Below are positions 8,944 to 27,671 of a stretch of 28,995 bases of DNA, in pieces. Made by a program: the position numbers and the translations under genes. The first letter of the stretch is position 1; each line of letters begins with the position of its first letter. Under the pieces are notes generated by a model. It did not search any database. It was not told the DNA's origin and was given only the letters and a program-made list of their open reading frames with translations. The DNA lies in the IMG/VR virus record IMGVR_UViG_3300029319_000345, positions 1 through 28,995 of that record; one strand, 5' to 3'. Origin of the DNA: a virus.

Positions 8944-9498
8944 ATGATTGTTGATCAACCTGCTCCCCCGGGGTCGATTGAAGCAAAAGACCCGTTTGCT
9001 GTAGCTCCCCCGGGCCACAGTCTTACGCAAGACAATGAGCGTTGGCCGTGGGGCAAGCCCCCGCAAGTTACCGATCCGTCAGTTGCATTCGACGAGGCAG
9101 TCAACTCTCTGGAGCAGCCGCGTGTTCGCAAGGAGATGATGAAGCTGCTCATCGTTGGTGCATCTGTAGAAGCTTTGGTGGAGGGGTACATCCTTCAAGC
9201 ATTTCACGAGGGTAGATTTATGCCTGACGTTGGCATGTTAATTAAGCCTATGCTTGCTCTGTATATCGCTAACGAGGCAGAGGAAGAAGATATTCCCTAT
9301 CGTTTCTTTGAAAACGAAAATCAGCTTGAGGAAGGCGAGATGGATGATCAGACCTTCTTCCGCATGATGAAGCAAAACAATCCGCGTATGTTTACTTTTG
9401 TTAGCGACAAAATCAACAAGTCTATCCGTCGAGGATTTTCTGAAGAAGAGCAACAGAACTTCATGGGTATGACAGCAGATATGGAAGAGACACAGTAA
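8944..9498 (+). CDS. Conserved marine phage protein, function unknown
   Basis: This 184-residue acidic protein has a Pro-rich N terminus (PPGHSLTQDNERWPWGKPPQ, about residues 22-41). A helical domain follows with LLIVGASVEALVEGYIL and MLIKPMLALYIANEAEEED. Proteins with a PGHSLT...PWGKPP opening and a VEALVEG helix recur in the structural regions of marine podo- and myophages (recalled). The C-terminal third is charged and helical. No catalytic motif or membrane segment is convincing. It ends in TAATG with the next gene, so the two are translationally coupled. A virion assembly role is inferred from location. Confidence 0.65.
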   Translation: MIVDQPAPPGSIEAKDPFAVAPPGHSLTQDNERWPWGKPPQVTDPSVAFDEAVNSLEQPRVRKEMMKLLIVGASVEALVEGYILQAFHEGRFMPDVGMLIKPMLALYIANEAEEEDIPYRFFENENQLEEGEMDDQTFFRMMKQNNPRMFTFVSDKINKSIRRGFSEEEQQNFMGMTADMEETQ

Positions 9499-12092
9499 TG
9501 GGTATCGGTGCAGCATTTGCCTCTGGTCTTGTTCGAGGCTTCACTCGCAACATTGAGATGGAGCAACAGCGCCGGTTGGCTGACAGACAAAAAGTTGACG
9601 CGCTAGAGACGCTTGTTGCAGAAGCCGTGATGAAGGGCGGCGATGATGTCAACATAAACGGCGTCAATCAAGTCAAGGACATGATTACGTCAGCGAGGCA
9701 GACACTAGACTCACGACAGCCTATTGACCTGTTTGGCCGTGCAACTGACGGTCTTGACCTTGACATGTCAAAGCTGTCGATGGACTTGACTGCTGCAACC
9801 AAGTACAACAGCACTCTAAAGGGTAACACGCATAGCTGGGGATTCAACACGAAAATTGACAGCGGCTTTAACGAGGCGAGTGCTAACGGCTACTTGGCAG
9901 AAGTTGTAGCCGGTCTACAAGACCCGAGTACAAACAGTCTGGCTTTGAAAATTGCAGAAGACCCGGGTTTGTTTAATCAGATTTATTCTCGTGTTAACAC
10001 TGCTCGGGGTGTGCTTGCACAGGCTGATCAGAATGAGATGATGGCTTCCGGAAAAGACCTTGGCACCTACACTGCTAGAGATGTTATCGGAATGCCCGGT
10101 ACAAATAGTGCGTTTTCTGGCCTCTCAGCTATCGATGCTATCGGCGTAAAAATGGGCTACATCGATCCCCCCTCTCACATGATGTCTGAAATTCACACAC
10201 AAAATCTTCAGGCAGGATTTGATGGTTCTAATATTGTCGGTATTACGTTAGCTCCCGTAGTAGATGGAGACGGGTTTGTAATCAATCACGAGGCTACTCC
10301 TGTAAAAGTCAGCGACAACGGCATGGCGGCTCTAGAGGCCATTTCAAGCAATGTCGGCATACCCAAAGAGAAGCTATTCCCCTTTATGACTGGCTCTGGG
10401 AGCAACAGTCTGGTTCGTGTGGGTATGACTACTAATGAAGATAAAATGATCGTATTCAGCATGGCGATGGGCATCAACGAAGAGTTGCCTACTGCTACAG
10501 GCTTTGACCCAGACTATCTTGATCAGATCAGTGATACTCTGCAAGTATCCGCTGGACAGCGTTTGAACACGCTGGCGAAAAATGCCACACGTGTGCATGG
10601 AGGTGATAGCGCCAAGAAGCTGACATACGCCGCTCATGCTATGGCTATGTACATGCAGCCTACTCGTAACGCAGTGGTGCAACCCATGTACGGCAGAACA
10701 GGCGGAACTCGTGCTGGCATTAGTCGTGCGGGATATATCGAACGCGCAGAGTACGGTGAGCTTGCAGGTCAAAAGGGATACACCCTTGCAGACATGGGAG
10801 AGCAACTGAAAAACGAAAAAGACGTGTTGCGTGACCTCAAAAGATTTAGAGAGAACAGAGAAAATCTTCGCAGTCCACTGGCGTATCAGGGCATCAAAAA
10901 AATCATTGGCGGATTTGTCTTCGGTGAAGAGGGCGTCATTGGTGCGTTCGCTCAAGACATAGGTCTAAAAGATAAGGTGCGCGTTGTTTCAGACGGCTCG
11001 GATGAAGTAGGCATAACCGAAAGTTACGCAGCTAGTCTTGACGCGCGAATGGCCGCTGCAAGAGAGCGAGACAAAAATGAGCCTCGCTCAGATGGTGCTA
11101 GTTATGCTGAAATTGAGGCACTGCGTATCTCACTGGCCTTTAAGATGGCCCGTGCAGCAGACCCGTCGGGACGACTATCTAACCAAGACATTGAACAACA
11201 GTTCGTTCGTTTGGGTGATGCCTTCGATACACCGGAAGCAGCACTGCAAAAACTCGACATCATCATCGAAGAATATCAGTCCAACATCGACCGTAAGCAG
11301 GTTCTGGTAAGCTACGGTTCAGGTGGTCAACAGAACATCAACGACATGGAAATGCGTATCATCGACGGCGCGATTGTTTCTGATACACTGTTTCGCAAGG
11401 CACGTGCCACTAAAATTGATACAGACTATACCCAGAACAAAACGTCCAGTACAGCGGCGCAGGGTTACTCTACCGCTGATGGTGGGGAAGTGTTCTCCAT
11501 TCTTGATGCAAACAGTATTCCTGTTCCGGGGATGTACAAGTCAACAGACGGAACTATTCTCAGCGTAGATCAACTCAGACGCGAGGCTCCAACAGTTGCA
11601 GCGGCACCCGAAGCCGCACCAGAGGCGGCACCCGAAGCCGCACCAGAGGCAGAGGCTCCTGCTGCCGTTGTGACCTTGCCAGACGCCAGCACCGCTACGG
11701 TTCCAAAGCCGGGGCCGAAGCCTAAACCTGTGCCTGCTACCGGATCGGCTGCACCTGCCGCACCTGCTGCACCACCTCCCCCTGCACCGGCTCCTGCTGC
11801 ACCGGCTCCTGTTGAACCGGCTCCCGAGTCGGACATTCTTCCGGGTGAGCCGGGGTCAGGTCTAGAAGCACCCGTTCAGAGGACAACTGCCTCTGAAGAC
11901 CCCGCTGAAGAGGGTGTGCTTCCACAAGTTGCTCCGAAACCAGCGGGAGCATACGCTTTTGACGAAGTGGATGTTATGAGTGGCGGAAGACAGAATGGCT
12001 ACGTGCTTCGTGATAAAGCCACGGGCAATCCTATTAAGGGAAGATTTAAGAACGAAGGCGGATACCTCGTTCCAATGAAGGTAGGCGCATAA
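9498..12092 (+). CDS. Large internal virion-like protein with Pro/Ala-rich linker
   Basis: This 864-residue protein starts with an Ala/Gly-rich helix (MGIGAAFASGLVRGF) and a charged coiled-coil-like segment. The body (about residues 60-690) is mixed helical with no recognised enzymatic motif. Residues 697-777 form a low-complexity Pro/Ala/Glu linker (repeated APEA, then PKPGPKPKP and APAAP), encoded partly by exact tandem DNA repeats. A compact C-terminal segment follows (FDEVDVMSGG...GGYLVPMKVGA). Size, position before the largest gene and TAATG coupling at both ends fit an ejection protein comparable in role to T7 gp15. I see no sequence motif that proves that. Confidence 0.6.
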   Translation: MGIGAAFASGLVRGFTRNIEMEQQRRLADRQKVDALETLVAEAVMKGGDDVNINGVNQVKDMITSARQTLDSRQPIDLFGRATDGLDLDMSKLSMDLTAATKYNSTLKGNTHSWGFNTKIDSGFNEASANGYLAEVVAGLQDPSTNSLALKIAEDPGLFNQIYSRVNTARGVLAQADQNEMMASGKDLGTYTARDVIGMPGTNSAFSGLSAIDAIGVKMGYIDPPSHMMSEIHTQNLQAGFDGSNIVGITLAPVVDGDGFVINHEATPVKVSDNGMAALEAISSNVGIPKEKLFPFMTGSGSNSLVRVGMTTNEDKMIVFSMAMGINEELPTATGFDPDYLDQISDTLQVSAGQRLNTLAKNATRVHGGDSAKKLTYAAHAMAMYMQPTRNAVVQPMYGRTGGTRAGISRAGYIERAEYGELAGQKGYTLADMGEQLKNEKDVLRDLKRFRENRENLRSPLAYQGIKKIIGGFVFGEEGVIGAFAQDIGLKDKVRVVSDGSDEVGITESYAASLDARMAAARERDKNEPRSDGASYAEIEALRISLAFKMARAADPSGRLSNQDIEQQFVRLGDAFDTPEAALQKLDIIIEEYQSNIDRKQVLVSYGSGGQQNINDMEMRIIDGAIVSDTLFRKARATKIDTDYTQNKTSSTAAQGYSTADGGEVFSILDANSIPVPGMYKSTDGTILSVDQLRREAPTVAAAPEAAPEAAPEAAPEAEAPAAVVTLPDASTATVPKPGPKPKPVPATGSAAPAAPAAPPPPAPAPAAPAPVEPAPESDILPGEPGSGLEAPVQRTTASEDPAEEGVLPQVAPKPAGAYAFDEVDVMSGGRQNGYVLRDKATGNPIKGRFKNEGGYLVPMKVGA
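11601..11648 (+). repeat. Two perfect 24-base tandem repeats in the linker
   Basis: The unit starting GCGGCACCCGAAGCC occupies 11601-11624 and is repeated without change at 11625-11648. It is in frame and encodes alternating Ala-Ala-Pro-Glu. The identity at synonymous positions points to recent slippage or unequal recombination. Confidence 0.85.
11784..11828 (+). repeat. Three imperfect 15-base tandem repeats in the linker
   Basis: Units at 11784-11798, 11799-11813 and 11814-11828 share the core ACCGGCTCC. They encode AP(A/V)-type Pro/Ala repeats. The first two differ at one base and the third is more diverged. Confidence 0.7.
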
Positions 12093-16813: not shown

Positions 16814-17086
16814 ATGAAAATGTACAACAACGGCCAGCGTAAGGCCATGATGTACGGCGGTATGTCGAAGCGCAAGCCGATGATGTACGGCGGTATGGCA
16901 AAGAAAAAACCCCGCAAGAAGGCTTACGGGGGTGGTATGATGACCTCTGCTGGCGGACCCATGACTCCGGGCCGCAACAAAATGCAGAACAATATGGCCA
17001 AGATGGCAAAGGGTGGATTTCCAGACCTGACAGGCGACGGTAAGGTCACGCAGGCTGACATCCTCAAGGGCAGGAAAGTAATTTAG
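16814..17086 (+). CDS. Small basic repeat protein with EF-hand/dockerin-like loop
   Basis: This 90-residue, strongly basic protein has 11-residue N-terminal repeats (MMYGGMSKRKP, MMYGGMAKKKP), then a Gly/Met/Lys-rich middle. The C-terminal segment DLTGDGKVTQAD (residues 71-82) has the Asp-x-Thr-x-Asp-Gly-x-Val-x-x-x-Asp pattern of an EF-hand or dockerin calcium loop. GGAG lies 6 bases ahead of the ATG. Comparable MMYGG-repeat proteins ending in GDGKVTQADIL are common in marine phages (recalled) but have no known role to me. The basic repeats could contact DNA or the virion interior. The gene overlaps the convergent minus-strand gene by 4 bases. Confidence 0.7.
   Translation: MKMYNNGQRKAMMYGGMSKRKPMMYGGMAKKKPRKKAYGGGMMTSAGGPMTPGRNKMQNNMAKMAKGGFPDLTGDGKVTQADILKGRKVI
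16847..16897 (+). repeat. 33-base spaced repeat encoding MMYGGM
   Basis: An identical 18-base block starting ATGATGTACGGC occurs at 16847-16864 and again at 16880-16897, a period of 33 bases. It encodes MMYGGM twice in the small basic protein. The flanking codons (Lys/Arg-rich) are similar but not identical. Confidence 0.85.
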
Positions 17087-17961: not shown

Positions 17962-18067
17962 CGATCTTTCTCCACTCCTCATAGCAGGGATGATTTCGAG
18001 GCGGATCATATTGAATCCATCCGTTACCCCGCTTCCACACCGGACGTGTTTCTTTTTTAGGCGGCAT
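17939..18067 (-). CDS. Candidate 42-residue protein between reductase and nuclease
   Basis: A short frame starts at the ATG at 18067 inside the reductase C terminus (11-base overlap), preceded by GAGGTGG about 9 bases upstream. It reads MPPKKETRPVWKRGNGWIQY and ends within the start of the nuclease gene. It fills what would otherwise be the only sizeable gap here, and the overlap pattern matches the rest of the operon. The protein is basic and rich in Trp and Pro. It may be a genuine small gene or merely an open frame bridging two genes. Confidence 0.45.
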   Translation of the reverse strand: MPPKKETRPVWKRGNGWIQYDPPRNHPCYEEWRKIVDRSQDK

Positions 18068-19997
18068 TGAGATCAACCACCTCGCACACGCCAGCCGTGC
18101 AGGCCAACTCGCGAGAGCCTGATGTGTTGTCTTCCCGTTCGTATTCGGACAACGCCTGCCAATCAATATTGAGGTAACCGTACGCTTGCTGCCACTCCAG
18201 ATACTCTTCGCGTTCGATGTCCTGATAGGGTGCCTGTTGATAGGTATGATCACTATGCGGCAGGAACGACACGCCCGACGCCACGTCAAAGTTCTCGTAC
18301 ACCCACGCGCCCACGTCCATCCACTCGTCCTCTTTGACCGTGATGGTCACAGACGGCTTGTGTTCGCACCAGTGGACAGCGTACGTCTTCCAAAGCTCTA
18401 GCTGTTCGATGGCTGTCATATCGTTGCGAGTGACCGCACCGTCGGGCGACTCCATTGCAAAGGAGAACACAGTCGTGTTGTCTGGCTTCATTACGTCTGG
18501 CTCGTTGTACACACCCTGTTCCTTCAGAAACTGTGTCAGCGGGTCTTTGTTGTCTCCGCGAACTGTGCGTATGTAATACTTATTATGTCTAGCGTGAATG
18601 CCGCTTGCAGCGTCCACCAGTTGCGATACAGTACCCGACGGTTTTACACAGGTGATGGCAGCCGACTGTGGAATACCAAGCCCGTTTGTTGCCAAGTCCC
18701 AGTTTGTGTCTACGGCTACGCGCTTCATCTCTTCGAGCCAACGAGCGGAATCGACGGTCTTTGATAAAACGTGATGATCCATGATACCAGTCAAGGATAC
18801 GCCCAACAATCGTTCTTCTTCTGTGTTGGTCTTCCATATTTTCCTCAAGTACTTGAAGTCGGTGAGTGTTGACTGCAGTGTGCCCAAGATAGTCGCAAGA
18901 TGGACCTTTTCTTTCAGGTCTTCGAGCGTGTCGTAGTCGCGGACAACCACCTCTGACAAGTTGCAAAACTGATAGGGACGCAGGATAATCTCGCTGCAGG
19001 GGTTGGTGCCCCACATATGTCCTGTCTCGCGACGTTCGTTACGAGCAACCTGCTTGTCGGCAGCGTCACGATTGAAGATGCCACGCTCTCCAGATTTGGA
19101 GTCGTACAGAGAAAGCCACTCGCGCATGAACGTGCCCATCTCAGGCTTGCCCTTGTAAGCAACAGAGTTGTTAGCCAGCGCACGCTGTCCCTCGTTCTCC
19201 CACCACGCACCCGACTTGGCGTGTGCCATCTGATCGTCGTTGAGGTTCGACAGACTAATCAGAGCGGAGCGACGAACGCCGCCTACCACGACGACCTCAC
19301 CCACCTTGCACATCAGGTCGTGACACTCAATAGGAAACAGACGACGACCTTGTGCTTTTACAAATAATTGTACAGCAAAGTTAAACAAATCTTCGAGCGG
19401 ACCCGGGCCAGAGGCACGACCGCCCATCGTCTTCAGACGCGCACCAGACGGGCGTATGGCAGACAAGTCCCACTTCGGAATGTGTCCTGCGTACAGCAGT
19501 GCAATCATTTCACGCAACGCCTTGGCCCACCCGGGCTTGGAGTCGCCAACTTTGATAACCGTGTCTGTGGGTTGCATGCCGTCACTGATTACTGGCAGCT
19601 TGTCCACGTTCTCGCGCTCGACAGAGAAGCCCACGCCTGTGCCACACATCAGGATATACATGCACTCGTCAAACGCACGAGGGCTGTCAACAGGAATGTA
19701 ACTACAGTTGTATCCACAGATGTTGTCCCGTGCAAGAGCATGACCGGCAGTCATCATGGCACGCATAGACGGCATAATGTCCTGATTAAGTATTGCCTGA
19801 CGTAACTTGCCCACATCACCGGGACACATATACTCTATATCAAAGTTGTGCTTCTCTTTGACGTGATCGACCATAAACTGCAGATAGCGTTCTACAGTCT
19901 CGTCCCAGTTCTCTCGGCGTTGTTCATCGTCAAGCCAGCGTGCGTAGCGAGACTTATGAATAAATTGCTGATAGGGTGTGGGCAACATATTATTCAT
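18057..19997 (-). CDS. nrdJ: Class II (B12-dependent) ribonucleotide reductase
   Basis: This 646-residue enzyme reduces ribonucleotides to deoxyribonucleotides using adenosylcobalamin, supplying precursors for phage DNA. All key residues of the monomeric class II type are present. Cys94 and Cys345 are the active-site disulphide pair. NPCSEI contains the thiyl-radical Cys334 with Asn332 and Glu336. PSGT (453-456) binds phosphate. The C-terminal CTAGVC (Cys633, Cys638) relays electrons. The spacing of 11 between Cys334 and Cys345 equals that of the Lactobacillus leichmannii enzyme. I set the start at 19997 because AGGAGG lies exactly 6 bases ahead; the in-frame ATG at 20012 begins just upstream of that ribosome binding site, which falls within its next two codons. 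The start overlaps the DUF3310 gene by 8 bases. The phage depends on host or environmental cobalamin (inference). Confidence 0.95.
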   Translation of the reverse strand: MNNMLPTPYQQFIHKSRYARWLDDEQRRENWDETVERYLQFMVDHVKEKHNFDIEYMCPGDVGKLRQAILNQDIMPSMRAMMTAGHALARDNICGYNCSYIPVDSPRAFDECMYILMCGTGVGFSVERENVDKLPVISDGMQPTDTVIKVGDSKPGWAKALREMIALLYAGHIPKWDLSAIRPSGARLKTMGGRASGPGPLEDLFNFAVQLFVKAQGRRLFPIECHDLMCKVGEVVVVGGVRRSALISLSNLNDDQMAHAKSGAWWENEGQRALANNSVAYKGKPEMGTFMREWLSLYDSKSGERGIFNRDAADKQVARNERRETGHMWGTNPCSEIILRPYQFCNLSEVVVRDYDTLEDLKEKVHLATILGTLQSTLTDFKYLRKIWKTNTEEERLLGVSLTGIMDHHVLSKTVDSARWLEEMKRVAVDTNWDLATNGLGIPQSAAITCVKPSGTVSQLVDAASGIHARHNKYYIRTVRGDNKDPLTQFLKEQGVYNEPDVMKPDNTTVFSFAMESPDGAVTRNDMTAIEQLELWKTYAVHWCEHKPSVTITVKEDEWMDVGAWVYENFDVASGVSFLPHSDHTYQQAPYQDIEREEYLEWQQAYGYLNIDWQALSEYEREDNTSGSRELACTAGVCEVVDLNAA

Positions 19998-20286
19998 CTG
20001 TAACCTCCTCAATAAGTTTTTCTAAGTACCACTTCGCCTTTTCTAGGTCTTGGACGCCGTTCTTGTAACGATAGCGCCACAGATACTTGATGATGTTTCC
20101 TTGTAGATAGTATTGATAGCCTTCGTCTGTGGCAGCGCGTATGGCTTCGATACACTCAACTCCTGCTTGATTGTAGTGTGGCGGGTTGTTAACCATGTCC
20201 GCCAGCCAATTCGCATTCGCTGCGCCTTGCATACTTGCCATGCTTTCCTGTTCCATGCGCTTCCTCATATACTCTTCATGTCTCAT
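19990..20286 (-). CDS. DUF3310 family protein (T7 gp1.7-like)
   Basis: This 98-residue protein contains VNNPPHYNQAGVECIEAIRA, then QGNIIKYLWRYRYKNGVQDL and KAKWYLEKLI. That is the signature of the short phage DUF3310 domain. The domain also occurs in T7 gp1.7, reported as a nucleotide kinase, but most short members have no demonstrated activity. The position directly ahead of the ribonucleotide reductase fits a nucleotide-metabolism role. The first 30 residues are Met/Glu-rich and not part of the domain. The start overlaps the upstream stop as ATGA. The protein has no membrane segment. Confidence 0.85.
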   Translation of the reverse strand: MRHEEYMRKRMEQESMASMQGAANANWLADMVNNPPHYNQAGVECIEAIRAATDEGYQYYLQGNIIKYLWRYRYKNGVQDLEKAKWYLEKLIEEVTDE

Positions 20287-23148: not shown

Positions 23149-24684
23149 TTACAGATCAACTTCTTCTAAGTCAAGCCAGTTTTTTCCTATTTTTATTTCG
23201 ATACCAACAGGCATGTCGTAGGTGACATTATATCTCCTCATGGTTTCAAAGGGTAACGAGAGCATGGCATGTTTCATCATGTCTATGCAAATATTTTTTT
23301 CGTCTGGATGCACGTCCATGACGATGGAGTCGTGAACTGTGTTACATATCACACTCTGAATTCCTGCAGAGTCAATGACCCGCTGCAATGACACCAGAGC
23401 TATGGGCAACAAATCAGCGGTGGCAAATCCCTGCACCGGATAGTTGCATATAGCTGTGCGATTAGTTGCTGTGCCCCAGTCTGTCCACCGTGCATCAGGA
23501 AAAGCATATACTCGTCCTGACGGCAGGGATATCTCGCGATACTTCACAGCATCAGCTTGCAATATCTCGTGCCATACAGCGATACCCATGTACTTGTTTT
23601 TGAAGTCATCATAGTAACGCTTTTGATCTTCAGTGCCAGTCGTGCCACCATACAGAGGCTTGAAGGTGTGTGCTTTCGCCTCTTGTCGTGTGCAGCCGAT
23701 GACGCTTGCTGTGTAAGCGTGTACGTCTGTGCCGTTGCGAACATCAGCGTAAACAACCTTGTCTTTGGCGAGAAAGCCTGCCACACGAAACTCTAGTTGC
23801 GAGTAGTCCCCTTCAAGAATGTAACCATCAGGGAAGCGACTTTCGACGACCTTACGTATTGCGAATGTCGAACCGCGTGGCATGTTTTGGAAATTCGGAT
23901 TGCGAGACGAAAGCCTGCCCGTCGCCGTAACACACTGCATGAATTCCGGATGGATGAAGCCGTGGTCATCGACGTTGTTTTCCATGCCTTCGACGAACGT
24001 GTTGATGTACGTCTTGAGGGCGTTGTAGCGAGTATAAGCTGAAACAAATTCACGGGCGTCTCCCTGTAGTTCGCCTAGTCTCTCTTCCAGTGTAACCTTG
24101 TCTGCGCGAAAGCCAGCCGCAGCAGTGTCCCACGTGTTGCGTGGCACAATCTTAAACCCTGCCACTTGTCCTGTAGGCACGTAAAGGACACCAGAACCGC
24201 CGCAGGGCTTACATATACGTACTGCCTTACCGGGGGTGCCATCTTTGCGTAACGCCCGTGTGCGGCCCTCTCCAGAGCATTTAGGACACTGTTGCCCTTT
24301 TGTCTTGTAAACCACGTCAGTCATGCGGCGCACGACGCCACGGAACTCTTTCTCTGCCATGCGTACCCGCTGCTTGGGTTTCATGGTTGATCCGCGCATC
24401 TCGTGACCGAGGTTAAACGCACGCGCCCACTCCTTCTTGTCGCGCACTTTGCGTGAGTAGAGCAACACGCTGCGGTCGTCTGGGCTGGACAGATTGATGG
24501 GCGTGTCACCCATTGCATCCCGTGCAAGTTGCATGAGCCGTGTCTCTAGCTCCTGCATCTCTTCTTCATACTGCTTGCGAATGTCGGCAAGCGTGTCGAG
24601 ATTGATTCGAAGTCCGTTACGCTCAATCTGTGAGAGCGTGTTGGTCATCTCCAGTGACAATTTCAGTGTCGGCACGAGGCTCAT
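23149..24684 (-). CDS. Family-A DNA polymerase with DnaJ-type zinc finger
   Basis: This 511-residue polymerase domain replicates the phage genome. Motif A is DYSQLEFRVAGF (Asp293), motif B is R-x3-K-x7-YG (Arg333, Lys337, Phe341, Tyr345), and motif C is VHDSIVMDV (Asp452). Phe341 corresponds to E. coli Pol I Phe762. An insertion upstream of motif A holds CPKCSGEG (Cys133, 136) and CKPCGGSG (Cys158, 161), half of the four-module DnaJ zinc domain, presumably binding one zinc. I recall this combination as the hallmark of phage HMO-2011. The proofreading domain is absent and lies in the upstream gene. I chose the ATG at 24684 because GAGGA lies 8 bases ahead; the TTG at 24699 begins just upstream of that site, which falls within its next codons. 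Confidence 0.93.
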   Translation of the reverse strand: MSLVPTLKLSLEMTNTLSQIERNGLRINLDTLADIRKQYEEEMQELETRLMQLARDAMGDTPINLSSPDDRSVLLYSRKVRDKKEWARAFNLGHEMRGSTMKPKQRVRMAEKEFRGVVRRMTDVVYKTKGQQCPKCSGEGRTRALRKDGTPGKAVRICKPCGGSGVLYVPTGQVAGFKIVPRNTWDTAAAGFRADKVTLEERLGELQGDAREFVSAYTRYNALKTYINTFVEGMENNVDDHGFIHPEFMQCVTATGRLSSRNPNFQNMPRGSTFAIRKVVESRFPDGYILEGDYSQLEFRVAGFLAKDKVVYADVRNGTDVHAYTASVIGCTRQEAKAHTFKPLYGGTTGTEDQKRYYDDFKNKYMGIAVWHEILQADAVKYREISLPSGRVYAFPDARWTDWGTATNRTAICNYPVQGFATADLLPIALVSLQRVIDSAGIQSVICNTVHDSIVMDVHPDEKNICIDMMKHAMLSLPFETMRRYNVTYDMPVGIEIKIGKNWLDLEEVDL

Positions 24685-25225
24685 TAAACATTTCCTCAAA
24701 GGTTACGCCAAAGGCGTCTAGTTGTTTCAGTGCGATCTCTTCTGTGGCAAGCACGTCCGCACGACCGTACTCTTCAATTATCTCCCACGGTATATCGTAG
24801 AACGTCTTGCCTTCCTTGAGATACGGCTCCACAAGGTCTTTCTCCTTGCGGGTAACGTCATACTTTTCTGTAAGAGCAGCAAGTCCAAGAGGCCAACGCC
24901 GCGCCTTGGAGAGTATATATTCTGCAACCATCGTATCATAAATATGTCCCTCATAGGTAAAGCCGCACTCGCGTATCCACGTCAAGTCAAACTTGATGTT
25001 GTGGCCGACAAGAACGTCAGCATATTTCAAGGCAGCTTGAAATTTTGTGAACGCATTTGAAGTCGGCGGCTGTGTCGAATGATAGTAACAGTCATAGTCC
25101 ACGCTACTGATCAGCCACTTGTACCCGATAGAGACCAACCGATTGCCAAAGTATGGCAAGGGTGAGTAACCGCCGCCACGCTTCTCCGTGTGAGTTGTCT
25201 CCACATCAAACGTCAGTACGTTCAT
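24623..25225 (-). CDS. 3'-5' proofreading exonuclease (split polymerase subunit)
   Basis: This 200-residue DnaQ-like exonuclease has all DEDDy motifs: FDVETT (Asp7, Glu9), GHNIKFDLTWI (Asp80) and YGRADVLATEE (Tyr153, Asp157). In most family-A replicative polymerases this domain is the N-terminal part of the same chain. Here it is a separate gene whose last 62 bases overlap the polymerase gene in another frame. AAGGT lies about 9 bases ahead of the ATG. The start overlaps the preceding nuclease gene by 20 bases. It is presumably a subunit bound to the polymerase. The alternative, a +1 frameshift product joining both, cannot be excluded. Confidence 0.92.
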   Translation of the reverse strand: MNVLTFDVETTHTEKRGGGYSPLPYFGNRLVSIGYKWLISSVDYDCYYHSTQPPTSNAFTKFQAALKYADVLVGHNIKFDLTWIRECGFTYEGHIYDTMVAEYILSKARRWPLGLAALTEKYDVTRKEKDLVEPYLKEGKTFYDIPWEIIEEYGRADVLATEEIALKQLDAFGVTFEEMFNEPRADTEIVTGDDQHALTD

Positions 25226-25532
25226 TCAGTATTACCTTCTCTCCAAACAGAACACGACCATCCCACTTCGCAACTAACTTGACATTTAGCTTTTGTTGTA
25301 AGCCAGTAAGACCACCTATCGACACAACATTTTCACCGTTTTGTTTGAGTCGCGCATGTGCAGTTTTGCTATCGTACAGCACCACATCGCCTGTCTCTAC
25401 ATCTAAAGTTACAAAGTCTACAGGTCCGGTTGACGACAGATTCCTGAAGACTTCGTAACCCTCGTTGAGAAAATGATGACAAAGTTCTAATTCTGTGACA
25501 TCCCCGACTCTTTTAGTTGACTTGTCAGTCAT
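25206..25532 (-). CDS. Small PD-(D/E)XK nuclease, Holliday-resolvase-like fold
   Basis: This 108-residue protein has the compact nuclease layout: RVGDVTELELCHHFLNEGYE (Glu14), TGPVDFVTLD (Asp39) and LYDSKTA (Asp54, Lys56). The sequence and length recall Hjc-type resolvases and the PDDEXK_5 endonuclease-like families. The position between helicase and exonuclease suggests processing of replication or recombination intermediates. Because the phage also encodes endonuclease I, its substrate is unclear. The ATG overlaps the helicase stop (TGATG). No membrane or signal segment. Confidence 0.75.
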   Translation of the reverse strand: MTDKSTKRVGDVTELELCHHFLNEGYEVFRNLSSTGPVDFVTLDVETGDVVLYDSKTAHARLKQNGENVVSIGGLTGLQQKLNVKLVAKWDGRVLFGEKVILNERTDV

Positions 25533-26752
25533 CAGTAATACACCCCCTTCTCCACGTCGATTTGCGCGTTGACCATACCATGCCAGCCGTTCAGCTTGTT
25601 CTTAGATACACAGATGTGACGCACGGTATTCTCTACCTCGCTTGATCCGGTCTTGCCTATGCCGATGATGATGTCGGCCTCACCAGCCTTACCCGTACGC
25701 GAGTTATCCAGCATAGAGTAGTCAATAAATTGACGGTCGTGTGCGTCAAAGTTTGCCTGACTAACTGCCCAGACCAGTAACTTGTTACGCTTGGCAATCT
25801 CCCGTGCGTAGACATAGGTCTCTTTGAGACGCTCGTCACCACGATTGAAGTCACCCTTGATGCGGAACTTGTCTAGCTGATCCATAAACATGATGTCAGG
25901 CTTGTTCAGCTTGGCGTATTCATCAGCCTCTTCGACAGACGTGCCCACCGAATCCATGACCGTCAGGTATGGTGCAATCTCGTCACGATACTTGACCGCG
26001 AGAGTTGCACGACTCTGCCGCATTTCTTGCTTGGTCAACTCAAAATATGACTGAATGATCCGTAGCTTTATGCGGTCAGCCGGTTCCTCGTTAGCCCAGT
26101 ACACAACCTTGAGTCCCTGCCGGATGTACGACGCAGCAAGGAAGCAGCAGAAAGTTGTCTTGCCAACTTCCGGTCGAGCGAACAGAATGCCGAGGTTGCC
26201 CCTATCTAGTCCGGGAACTTCTTCCTGTAACAGATTGAATTGAAACGGAAAGTCAGGGTCGCCAGTCACGGCGTCAAGTAATTCATCCAAGTCGTTATCC
26301 ACTTCTGTATAGGTTGTTTTGTCAGACATGCGTCCGTCATCAACAGCATCAATAAGGCGTTGCAACTCCCCGAACTCTTCGCTCTCGCCTGTGAAGATTT
26401 CGATAGCCTTCTCACCAATTTGTCGGGCACGATCACGCAACCAGAAGTTACGCACCATGTCGATGTGCATGTCTGTGTTCTCTGGGTTGCCAGACTCAAG
26501 CGTAACGATGATATCGTGTACCTTCTCACGCGCACTGTCGGGCATGGCAGGATTGCGATCATCGAACAACGCAGCTAACTCCGATGATGTCATCGTGTTG
26601 CCATACTTTGTGTGGCTATAGGTCAGCGTGTCGAAGATGTCACGCATCTCTCGCGTGAACATGTCACGATCAAGCGTGTTCTTTACTTGTGAAAAGAATT
26701 CTGCGTTGAGGCAAAAGCCAAGTATCTGTGTGTCAAGCGATACGTTCGTCAA
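25532..26752 (-). CDS. DnaB-like replicative DNA helicase
   Basis: This 406-residue hexameric-type helicase has an N-terminal DnaB-like helical domain (residues 5-60). Its RecA-like motor has Walker A ARPEVGKTT (192-200), a catalytic-Glu region NEEPADR (221-227), Walker B IMFMDQLD (Asp291) and the AVSQ motif after it. The motor is of the SF4 (DnaB/T7 gp4) class. Unlike T7 gp4 it is not fused to a primase and keeps a DnaB-style N domain. The start is a TTG at 26752, inside the end of the primase gene (20-base overlap). AGGG lies about 9 bases ahead and no upstream in-frame ATG fits. It unwinds DNA for the polymerase encoded three genes downstream. Confidence 0.92.
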   Translation of the reverse strand: MTNVSLDTQILGFCLNAEFFSQVKNTLDRDMFTREMRDIFDTLTYSHTKYGNTMTSSELAALFDDRNPAMPDSAREKVHDIIVTLESGNPENTDMHIDMVRNFWLRDRARQIGEKAIEIFTGESEEFGELQRLIDAVDDGRMSDKTTYTEVDNDLDELLDAVTGDPDFPFQFNLLQEEVPGLDRGNLGILFARPEVGKTTFCCFLAASYIRQGLKVVYWANEEPADRIKLRIIQSYFELTKQEMRQSRATLAVKYRDEIAPYLTVMDSVGTSVEEADEYAKLNKPDIMFMDQLDKFRIKGDFNRGDERLKETYVYAREIAKRNKLLVWAVSQANFDAHDRQFIDYSMLDNSRTGKAGEADIIIGIGKTGSSEVENTVRHICVSKNKLNGWHGMVNAQIDVEKGVYY

Positions 26753-27542
26753 TGAACTCGTCCCTTTCGTCGTCCCTCATGTTTTTCAAGTCGTATGGCA
26801 GCACTGCCAAGGATGTCGGCACAAGAAAATGCAAACGTCGAACCATGTCAAGTGCCTTGTCAGTCGCATCCTTGTCCATCGCAATAAACACATGACGATA
26901 CTCGGACAGACGTTTAACATGCTCGTTGAGCAAGTTCGTGCCTAACAGAGCCATGCCTGTGACCTTGTTGCTTATCGCACAGGCACTGGCACAATCCTCT
27001 ACCACAAAGACAACATCTGATGTGCCGCAAACAAACGGCATCTGTGACTTACCATACCGATACCACTTGGGTCTGATGTCACGCAACGCTCTGCCCACGG
27101 CATCTACAACCTTGCGACCATCCCGCACCATGTATACGACGCGGTGGCGCTTGAAGTCGTAGCGAATGTCAGCACGACCTGACAAATATGAGTCATAAGC
27201 ACTGACCTTTTTTACATAAAGCTCTGCATCTATGTTGCGTGACAGGCTCACAAATGTAGATGGTTCTTCAAAAGAGGCCCAGTGAGGATAAGCGACATTC
27301 GGAAATTTTTGCCGGTCTTTTATCAACGCTTGACTAGCGAACTCTTTCGTCAACTTCACACCCGTACGCCCCTTCACGTTACAGTCAGCGTGAAAGCAGT
27401 ACCACAGACGCTGAACTCCGTCATCCGTCACGCTGAACGTGTTCGACTTAGCGCAGACAGGACAATCTGATCGATAACTTGTCAGCGGCTGCATATCAAG
27501 TGATTCAACGTAAGCCGTAAGCCATGACGGGGATTTGGTCAT
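26733..27542 (-). CDS. DNA primase with zinc finger and TOPRIM domain
   Basis: This 269-residue primase makes RNA primers for lagging-strand synthesis. An N-terminal zinc ribbon is visible (Cys27, Cys30, Cys49, Cys54; C-x2-C-x18-C-x4-C). The TOPRIM catalytic core has Glu182 (VFVVEDCASACAI) and Asp223/Asp225 (FIAMDKDAT). The order and size match the primase half of T7 gp4, here as an independent gene. I chose the ATG at 27542 because AAGGTGG lies about 9 bases upstream; the frame from 27602 would add a hydrophobic stretch not expected in primases. It is the first gene of the minus-strand replication operon, next to the divergent regulatory region. Confidence 0.92.
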   Translation of the reverse strand: MTKSPSWLTAYVESLDMQPLTSYRSDCPVCAKSNTFSVTDDGVQRLWYCFHADCNVKGRTGVKLTKEFASQALIKDRQKFPNVAYPHWASFEEPSTFVSLSRNIDAELYVKKVSAYDSYLSGRADIRYDFKRHRVVYMVRDGRKVVDAVGRALRDIRPKWYRYGKSQMPFVCGTSDVVFVVEDCASACAISNKVTGMALLGTNLLNEHVKRLSEYRHVFIAMDKDATDKALDMVRRLHFLVPTSLAVLPYDLKNMRDDERDEFIDERIA

Positions 27543-27671
27543 AAGCGATTCCACCTTCCTATCAGTAACAAGAAGTAACAAACAATGACAAAGAGATGCC
27601 ACGACTCAGACAGCTTGTAAACAAGTAAAGCAAGTAAATGTTCCATGCCGCCACGGTAGACGACAAAGATA

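Follow-up and report, generated by a model that had tools for sequence, protein, structure and literature searches.

The window analysed here is a 28,995-nucleotide stretch of viral DNA. An ORF on its minus strand, running from 24684 to 23149 including the stop codon, encodes a 511-aa family-A DNA polymerase subunit (P0001) from an ATG start; the plus strand of this region contains many stop codons. P0001 matched the Pfam family DNA_pol_A with an E-value of 4.4e-49. Alignment identified motif A (EGDYSQLEF, residues 291–299, 23788..23814), motif B (RQEAKAHTFKPLYGG, residues 333–347, 23644..23688) and motif C (VHD, residues 450–452, 23329..23337), all encoded on the minus strand, such that P0001 contains the family-A palm of an HMO-2011-type polymerase. 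Conservation was assessed with a set of 276 HMO-2011-type polymerases, drawn from IMG/VR and from cultured phages, in which D293 of motif A was invariant. A 3′–5′ exonuclease subunit (P0002, 200 aa) is encoded by a separate minus-strand ORF at 24623..25225 and matched PF01612 with an E-value of 2.8e-10.

A first-pass annotation of this DNA had described the Lys that follows the Phe762 equivalent in motif B as unusual. K342 is present in the TFKPLYGG sequence of P0001; however, this position was occupied by Lys in 162 of the 276 polymerases (Ala in 101, Ser in 11 and Gln in 2). FKPLYGG was also found in the Zobellviridae-type Vibrio phages 1.015 and 1.070, neither of which has the zinc insert described below. 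Judged by this comparison, the motif B Lys is a lineage feature and not an oddity of P0001.

The zinc module

P0001 contains two CxxCxGxG modules, C133PKCSGEG140 (24265..24288) and C158KPCGGSG165 (24190..24213), both encoded on the minus strand and recognised by sequence, conservation and a DnaJ profile. Their cysteine pairs, Cys133/136 and Cys158/161, are at the positions that the first-pass annotation had given. The DnaJ_CXXCXGXG profile (PF00684) matched residues 128–167 with an E-value of 0.0012, which is under Pfam's own cut-off, and 39 of 41 diverse family members matched the same profile with a best E-value of 2e-6. C133, C136, C158 and C161 were retained in 276/276 polymerases, while each of the five remaining Cys residues of P0001 was kept in only about 30%. 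As the two groups of residues differed to this extent, we rejected the possibility that the four-Cys pattern arose by chance. The Gly residues of the modules were less strictly conserved than the Cys residues (G163, 82% of 276), and one polymerase (L350) has CDECKGNK. In the polymerase of CRP-738 (L011, 955–3105) the loop between the Cys pairs is 12 residues longer, and therefore the hairpin tip tolerates insertions.

Profile comparison aligned the zinc module with about residues 155–194 of E. coli DnaJ, comprising modules 2 and 3 of its Cys-rich domain. The DnaJ counterparts of the four Cys residues are C161/164 and C183/186, which constitute zinc centre II; thus, the insert corresponds to one complete zinc site rather than to an arbitrary half of the domain. 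The earlier proposal that a single zinc could be bound agrees with this alignment, in which the predicted site equals one whole centre. Paired strands were also predicted around both CxxC motifs by AlphaFold2. P0001 differs from DnaJ/Hsp40 proteins, which have a J domain and four zinc modules, in that it has two modules, gave no J-domain match and carries the modules inside a polymerase. As zinc motifs of antiterminator Q-like and anti-TRAP proteins matched the module about equally well, the term DnaJ denotes resemblance here and not proven descent.

The module is not new. Two publications (PMC9038755, PMC6918029) describe, as a hallmark of HMO-2011-type polymerases, a partial DnaJ domain containing two CXXCXGXG motifs, in agreement with the first-pass annotation; this domain served as a filter that recruited 207 metagenomic genomes (PMC9038755). 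P0001 carries this partial domain. HMO-2011, CRP-1/2/3 and HTVC033P have the same two-module insertion in the same place, with 36–47% identity over the whole polymerase. We found no description of a function for the module in the accessible portions of the HMO-2011-type literature, again in agreement with the first-pass annotation, and sequence and fold searches recognised no solved or predicted structure with the same insert.

The thumb-tip insertion and a proposed DNA clamp

Alignment and an AlphaFold2 model of P0001 (mean pLDDT 86.7) showed that the zinc module is part of an insertion of about 110 residues (about residues 80–195; 24100..24447, minus strand). In the model, helix H (29–58) and helix H1 (68–76) precede the insertion, and helices H2 (196–205) and I (208–237) follow it, which places the insertion between H1 and H2 in the thumb tip. 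Strands 126–132, 141–145, 151–157 and 166–174 flank the Cys pairs. The model of a fused relative (L094; pLDDT 87.3) had the identical order of elements, and in a profile alignment with E. coli Pol I the insertion falls at about Klenow residues 594–608, inside the thumb. The first-pass annotation had correctly assigned the module to the thumb; however, it had implied that thumb sequence was replaced, whereas the profile alignment and the model indicate that the H1–H2 loop is extended instead. The published location of the module, between exonuclease and polymerase, is refined by these results to a site within the thumb-tip insertion. In Pol I, the segment at the insertion point is the thumb tip, deletion of which lowers DNA affinity and processivity.

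The insertion has a net charge of +17 in P0001 and a mean net charge of +11.9 among the 276 polymerases (range +1 to +21). Outside of the insertion the mean net charge of the same 276 proteins was −3.4. A basic insertion on a near-neutral enzyme favours a zinc-stapled DNA clamp.

The thumb insertion of T7 contributes to processivity, and thumb insertions of both the T7 and the human mitochondrial polymerase contact processivity factors (PMC7699545, PMC5984650). The thioredoxin-binding insertion of T7 resembles that of P0001: both are basic, both lie in the thumb of a phage replicase of family A, and a clamp role is proposed for both. We nevertheless rejected the possibility that the two occupy the same position. 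The T7 insertion ends just before FNPSS334, which is equivalent to the FNLSS sequence preceding H1 in Pol I. From this anchor and the Pol I profile, the two insertions are on opposite sides of H1: the T7 insertion is on the N-terminal side, between helices H and H1, contains no zinc and needs thioredoxin, whereas the P0001 insertion is between H1 and H2. A plain MAFFT alignment misplaced the T7 sequence, and hhalign of P0001 against T7 gp5 aligned residues from 226 onward only, with the thumb outside of the aligned region.

A large insertion with a similar C-terminal stretch is also present between H1 and H2 in the Autographiviridae-type polymerases of Scott and RHph_I38, but these contain no cysteine pairs, are larger and are fused to their exonuclease. 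As this insertion is Cys-free, zinc is not needed for every H1–H2 insertion. No Cys-bearing Autographiviridae intermediate was present among the few loci, a minority of the total, that were parsed by a motif filter. The Scott-like polymerase of L306 has one CxxC and three Cys residues in the thumb region, which is otherwise Cys-free. Zobellviridae-type Vibrio polymerases have no insertion at H1–H2.

The best explanation for these features, to which we assign a probability of roughly 0.55, is that the insertion is a DNA clamp, stapled by zinc, at the thumb tip of a two-subunit, HMO-2011-related replicase. One subunit would be the family-A polymerase, in which a single DnaJ-type zinc site would hold together the basic insertion (about 110 residues), and the other would be the 3′–5′ exonuclease produced from the overlapping upstream gene. 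Two β-hairpins, stapled by the zinc site, would make up a rigid knob. With its positive charge, the insertion would follow the duplex behind the active site, forming a built-in clamp that slows dissociation. Such a clamp would do the job that thioredoxin does on T7's own thumb insertion. A DNA-clamp or processivity role, which the first-pass annotation had listed among several functions, is plausible and is now better supported, mainly by the charge of the insertion and its modelled position. Three observations count against it: the charge of the insertion is as low as +1 in some family members, the Autographiviridae-type insertion at this site lacks Cys, and Zobellviridae-type relatives replicate without any insertion. 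Together, the thumb-tip site and the basic charge turn an odd annotation, a DnaJ domain between domains, into a clamp hypothesis that can be tested.

A second explanation, which we consider about half as probable, is that the zinc knob mainly docks another replisome protein, such as the helicase, primase, SSB or a host or phage processivity factor, rather than serving as a clamp alone. Antiterminator Q-like and anti-TRAP proteins likewise have zinc motifs resembling half of the DnaJ zinc domain, and protein binding is common among DnaJ-type zinc domains. In T7, the thumb insertion is a binding site for thioredoxin and also for the SSB tail (PMC7699545). However, strong positive charge across the insertion suits nucleic acid better than protein docking, and no partner was identified. 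It is unlikely that the zinc site is a mere structural staple of the thumb extension that binds neither DNA nor protein directly. The Scott and RHph_I38 insertions, of similar size and in the same place, show that zinc is dispensable elsewhere, but the invariance of the four Cys residues and the high conservation of K147, G149, A175 and G176 among the 276 diverse polymerases suggest a working surface.

Separation of the exonuclease and polymerase genes

The exonuclease and polymerase genes overlap by 62 nt (24623..24684, minus strand), with the polymerase in the +1 frame relative to the exonuclease. A Shine–Dalgarno-like GAGGA sequence (24693..24697, minus strand) is situated 8 nt before the polymerase ATG. 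The same frame relation was found in all 80 of the closest IMG/VR loci, which are 71–98% identical, i.e. in 81 loci including the window. A start codon preceded at 5–8 nt by a Shine–Dalgarno-like site was present in 81/81 split loci, compared with 7/194 fused loci at the equivalent position. The junctions of L045, L047, L049, L055 and L067 have diverged and lack the usual AGG[AG] core; L055 instead has a GGAG core situated 6 nt upstream of the polymerase start.

The exonuclease was split from the polymerase in 74/74 relatives with a scorable exonuclease, whereas it was fused in 184/184 HTVC033P-, HMO-2011- and CRP-3-like loci. HMO-2011, HTVC033P and eight CRP phages encode a single exonuclease–polymerase protein of 678–716 aa that also includes the DnaJ part; the window instead has two genes and a 511-aa polymerase. 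As the window and all 74 relatives have two ORFs, we conclude that this is a split sister variant and not a standard HMO-2011-type member. The first-pass annotation had mentioned a separate exonuclease but had missed that this separation is itself the departure from known HMO-2011-type polymerases. P0002 matched both PHROG 17 and the 'DNA polymerase exonuclease subunit' families PHROG 403/192, which are stand-alone proofreading exonucleases of other phages. Its best match was the polymerase family PHROG 17, consistent with fission of a fused enzyme. The MEP401-type OM43 phage also has a marine family-A polymerase in two ORFs, but there it is the polymerase domain itself that is interrupted, by a small ORF that is possibly an intron, and no DnaJ-type domain is present (PMC10580990).

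Under the clamp model, the polymerase would have an internal ribosome-binding site for its own translation. The exonuclease would join non-covalently at the place where the exonuclease of the fused homologue sits. Alternatively, programmed frameshifting in the overlap could still yield one exonuclease–polymerase protein. The constant frame relation in all 81 loci and the fused state of the relatives count in its favour. We nevertheless regard it as improbable, because the start codon and Shine–Dalgarno-like site are conserved in the split loci and rare in the fused loci, and inspection by eye recognised no frameshift signal. A role of the zinc module in docking the separate exonuclease, also suggested in the first-pass annotation, was weakened and is slightly less probable still. 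In its favour, the module and the exonuclease are each located on the thumb side, and an enzyme in two parts requires an interface; however, all four Cys residues are retained whether the exonuclease is fused (194 polymerases) or split (75 polymerases), and therefore the module cannot have arisen to dock a separate exonuclease. A one-base indel would part the two frames, but we rejected a sequencing or assembly error since the other testable contigs, drawn from many datasets, carry the same split in 74/74 cases.

A phylogenetic tree divided split from fused polymerases with a support of 100, and the split clade grouped with pelagiphage HTVC033P with a support of 95 in the unrooted newick, which also contained Zobellviridae-type outgroups. 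On the basis of this tree, the split loci form one clade, sister to HTVC033P. A set of 50,697 records contained no cultured phage belonging to the split clade; the best isolate was HTVC033P at 47%. The published polymerase tree (PMC9038755) admitted only sequences longer than 540 aa, and 511-aa polymerases would consequently drop from it, so that the split marks a lineage omitted by the published length filter. The same source ranks HMO-2011-type phages among the most abundant ocean phages (PMC9038755). No report of this exonuclease/polymerase split was found in literature accessible without subscription, and its conserved fission in an uncultured branch appears to be undescribed. The thumb-tip placement, the match to zinc centre II and the charge of the insertion are, together with this conserved fission, what the present analysis adds. 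The split also provides a natural exonuclease-free, zinc-module-bearing polymerase of 511 aa that is suited to direct biochemistry. More tentatively, this uncultured marine lineage may use a self-processive, zinc-clamped polymerase with a proofreading subunit supplied in trans, the dose of which relative to the polymerase could be tuned via the conserved overlapping start.

Searches for cellular relatives returned only phage-looking contigs in MAGs or single-cell genomes, and none was accepted as cellular. One polymerase (L349, 3–1142), from the single-cell genome AG-899-M17 of an uncultured alphaproteobacterium, is 49% identical and has the zinc module and FKPLYGG; this genome is a possible hint at a host. 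Contigs of the same length and with the same assembler name (L347/L348 and L352/L353) were present in Flavobacteriales and Neomarinimicrobiota MAGs. As matching contigs sit in two different MAGs, MAG host labels are unreliable for these phages.

Several neighbouring ORFs were also noted. A 108-aa ORF (25206–25532, minus strand) with a very weak PD-(D/E)XK match (E 0.075) lies between the helicase and exonuclease genes; in HMO-2011 and HTVC033P the helicase adjoins the polymerase. A primase-like ORF (26733–27602, minus strand) gave weak Toprim matches and has its own CxxC zinc-like motif. On the plus strand, a 90-aa ORF (16814–17086) contains MYGGMxKxKP repeats together with an EF-hand or dockerin-like DLTGDGKVTQADI at its C terminus, and an 864-aa ORF (9498–12092) has EAAP- and PAAP-type Ala/Pro repeats in its C-terminal part. 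The minus-strand ORF at 18057–20012 encodes a Class II (B12-dependent) ribonucleotide reductase, in which the RNR-II insertion domain was matched.
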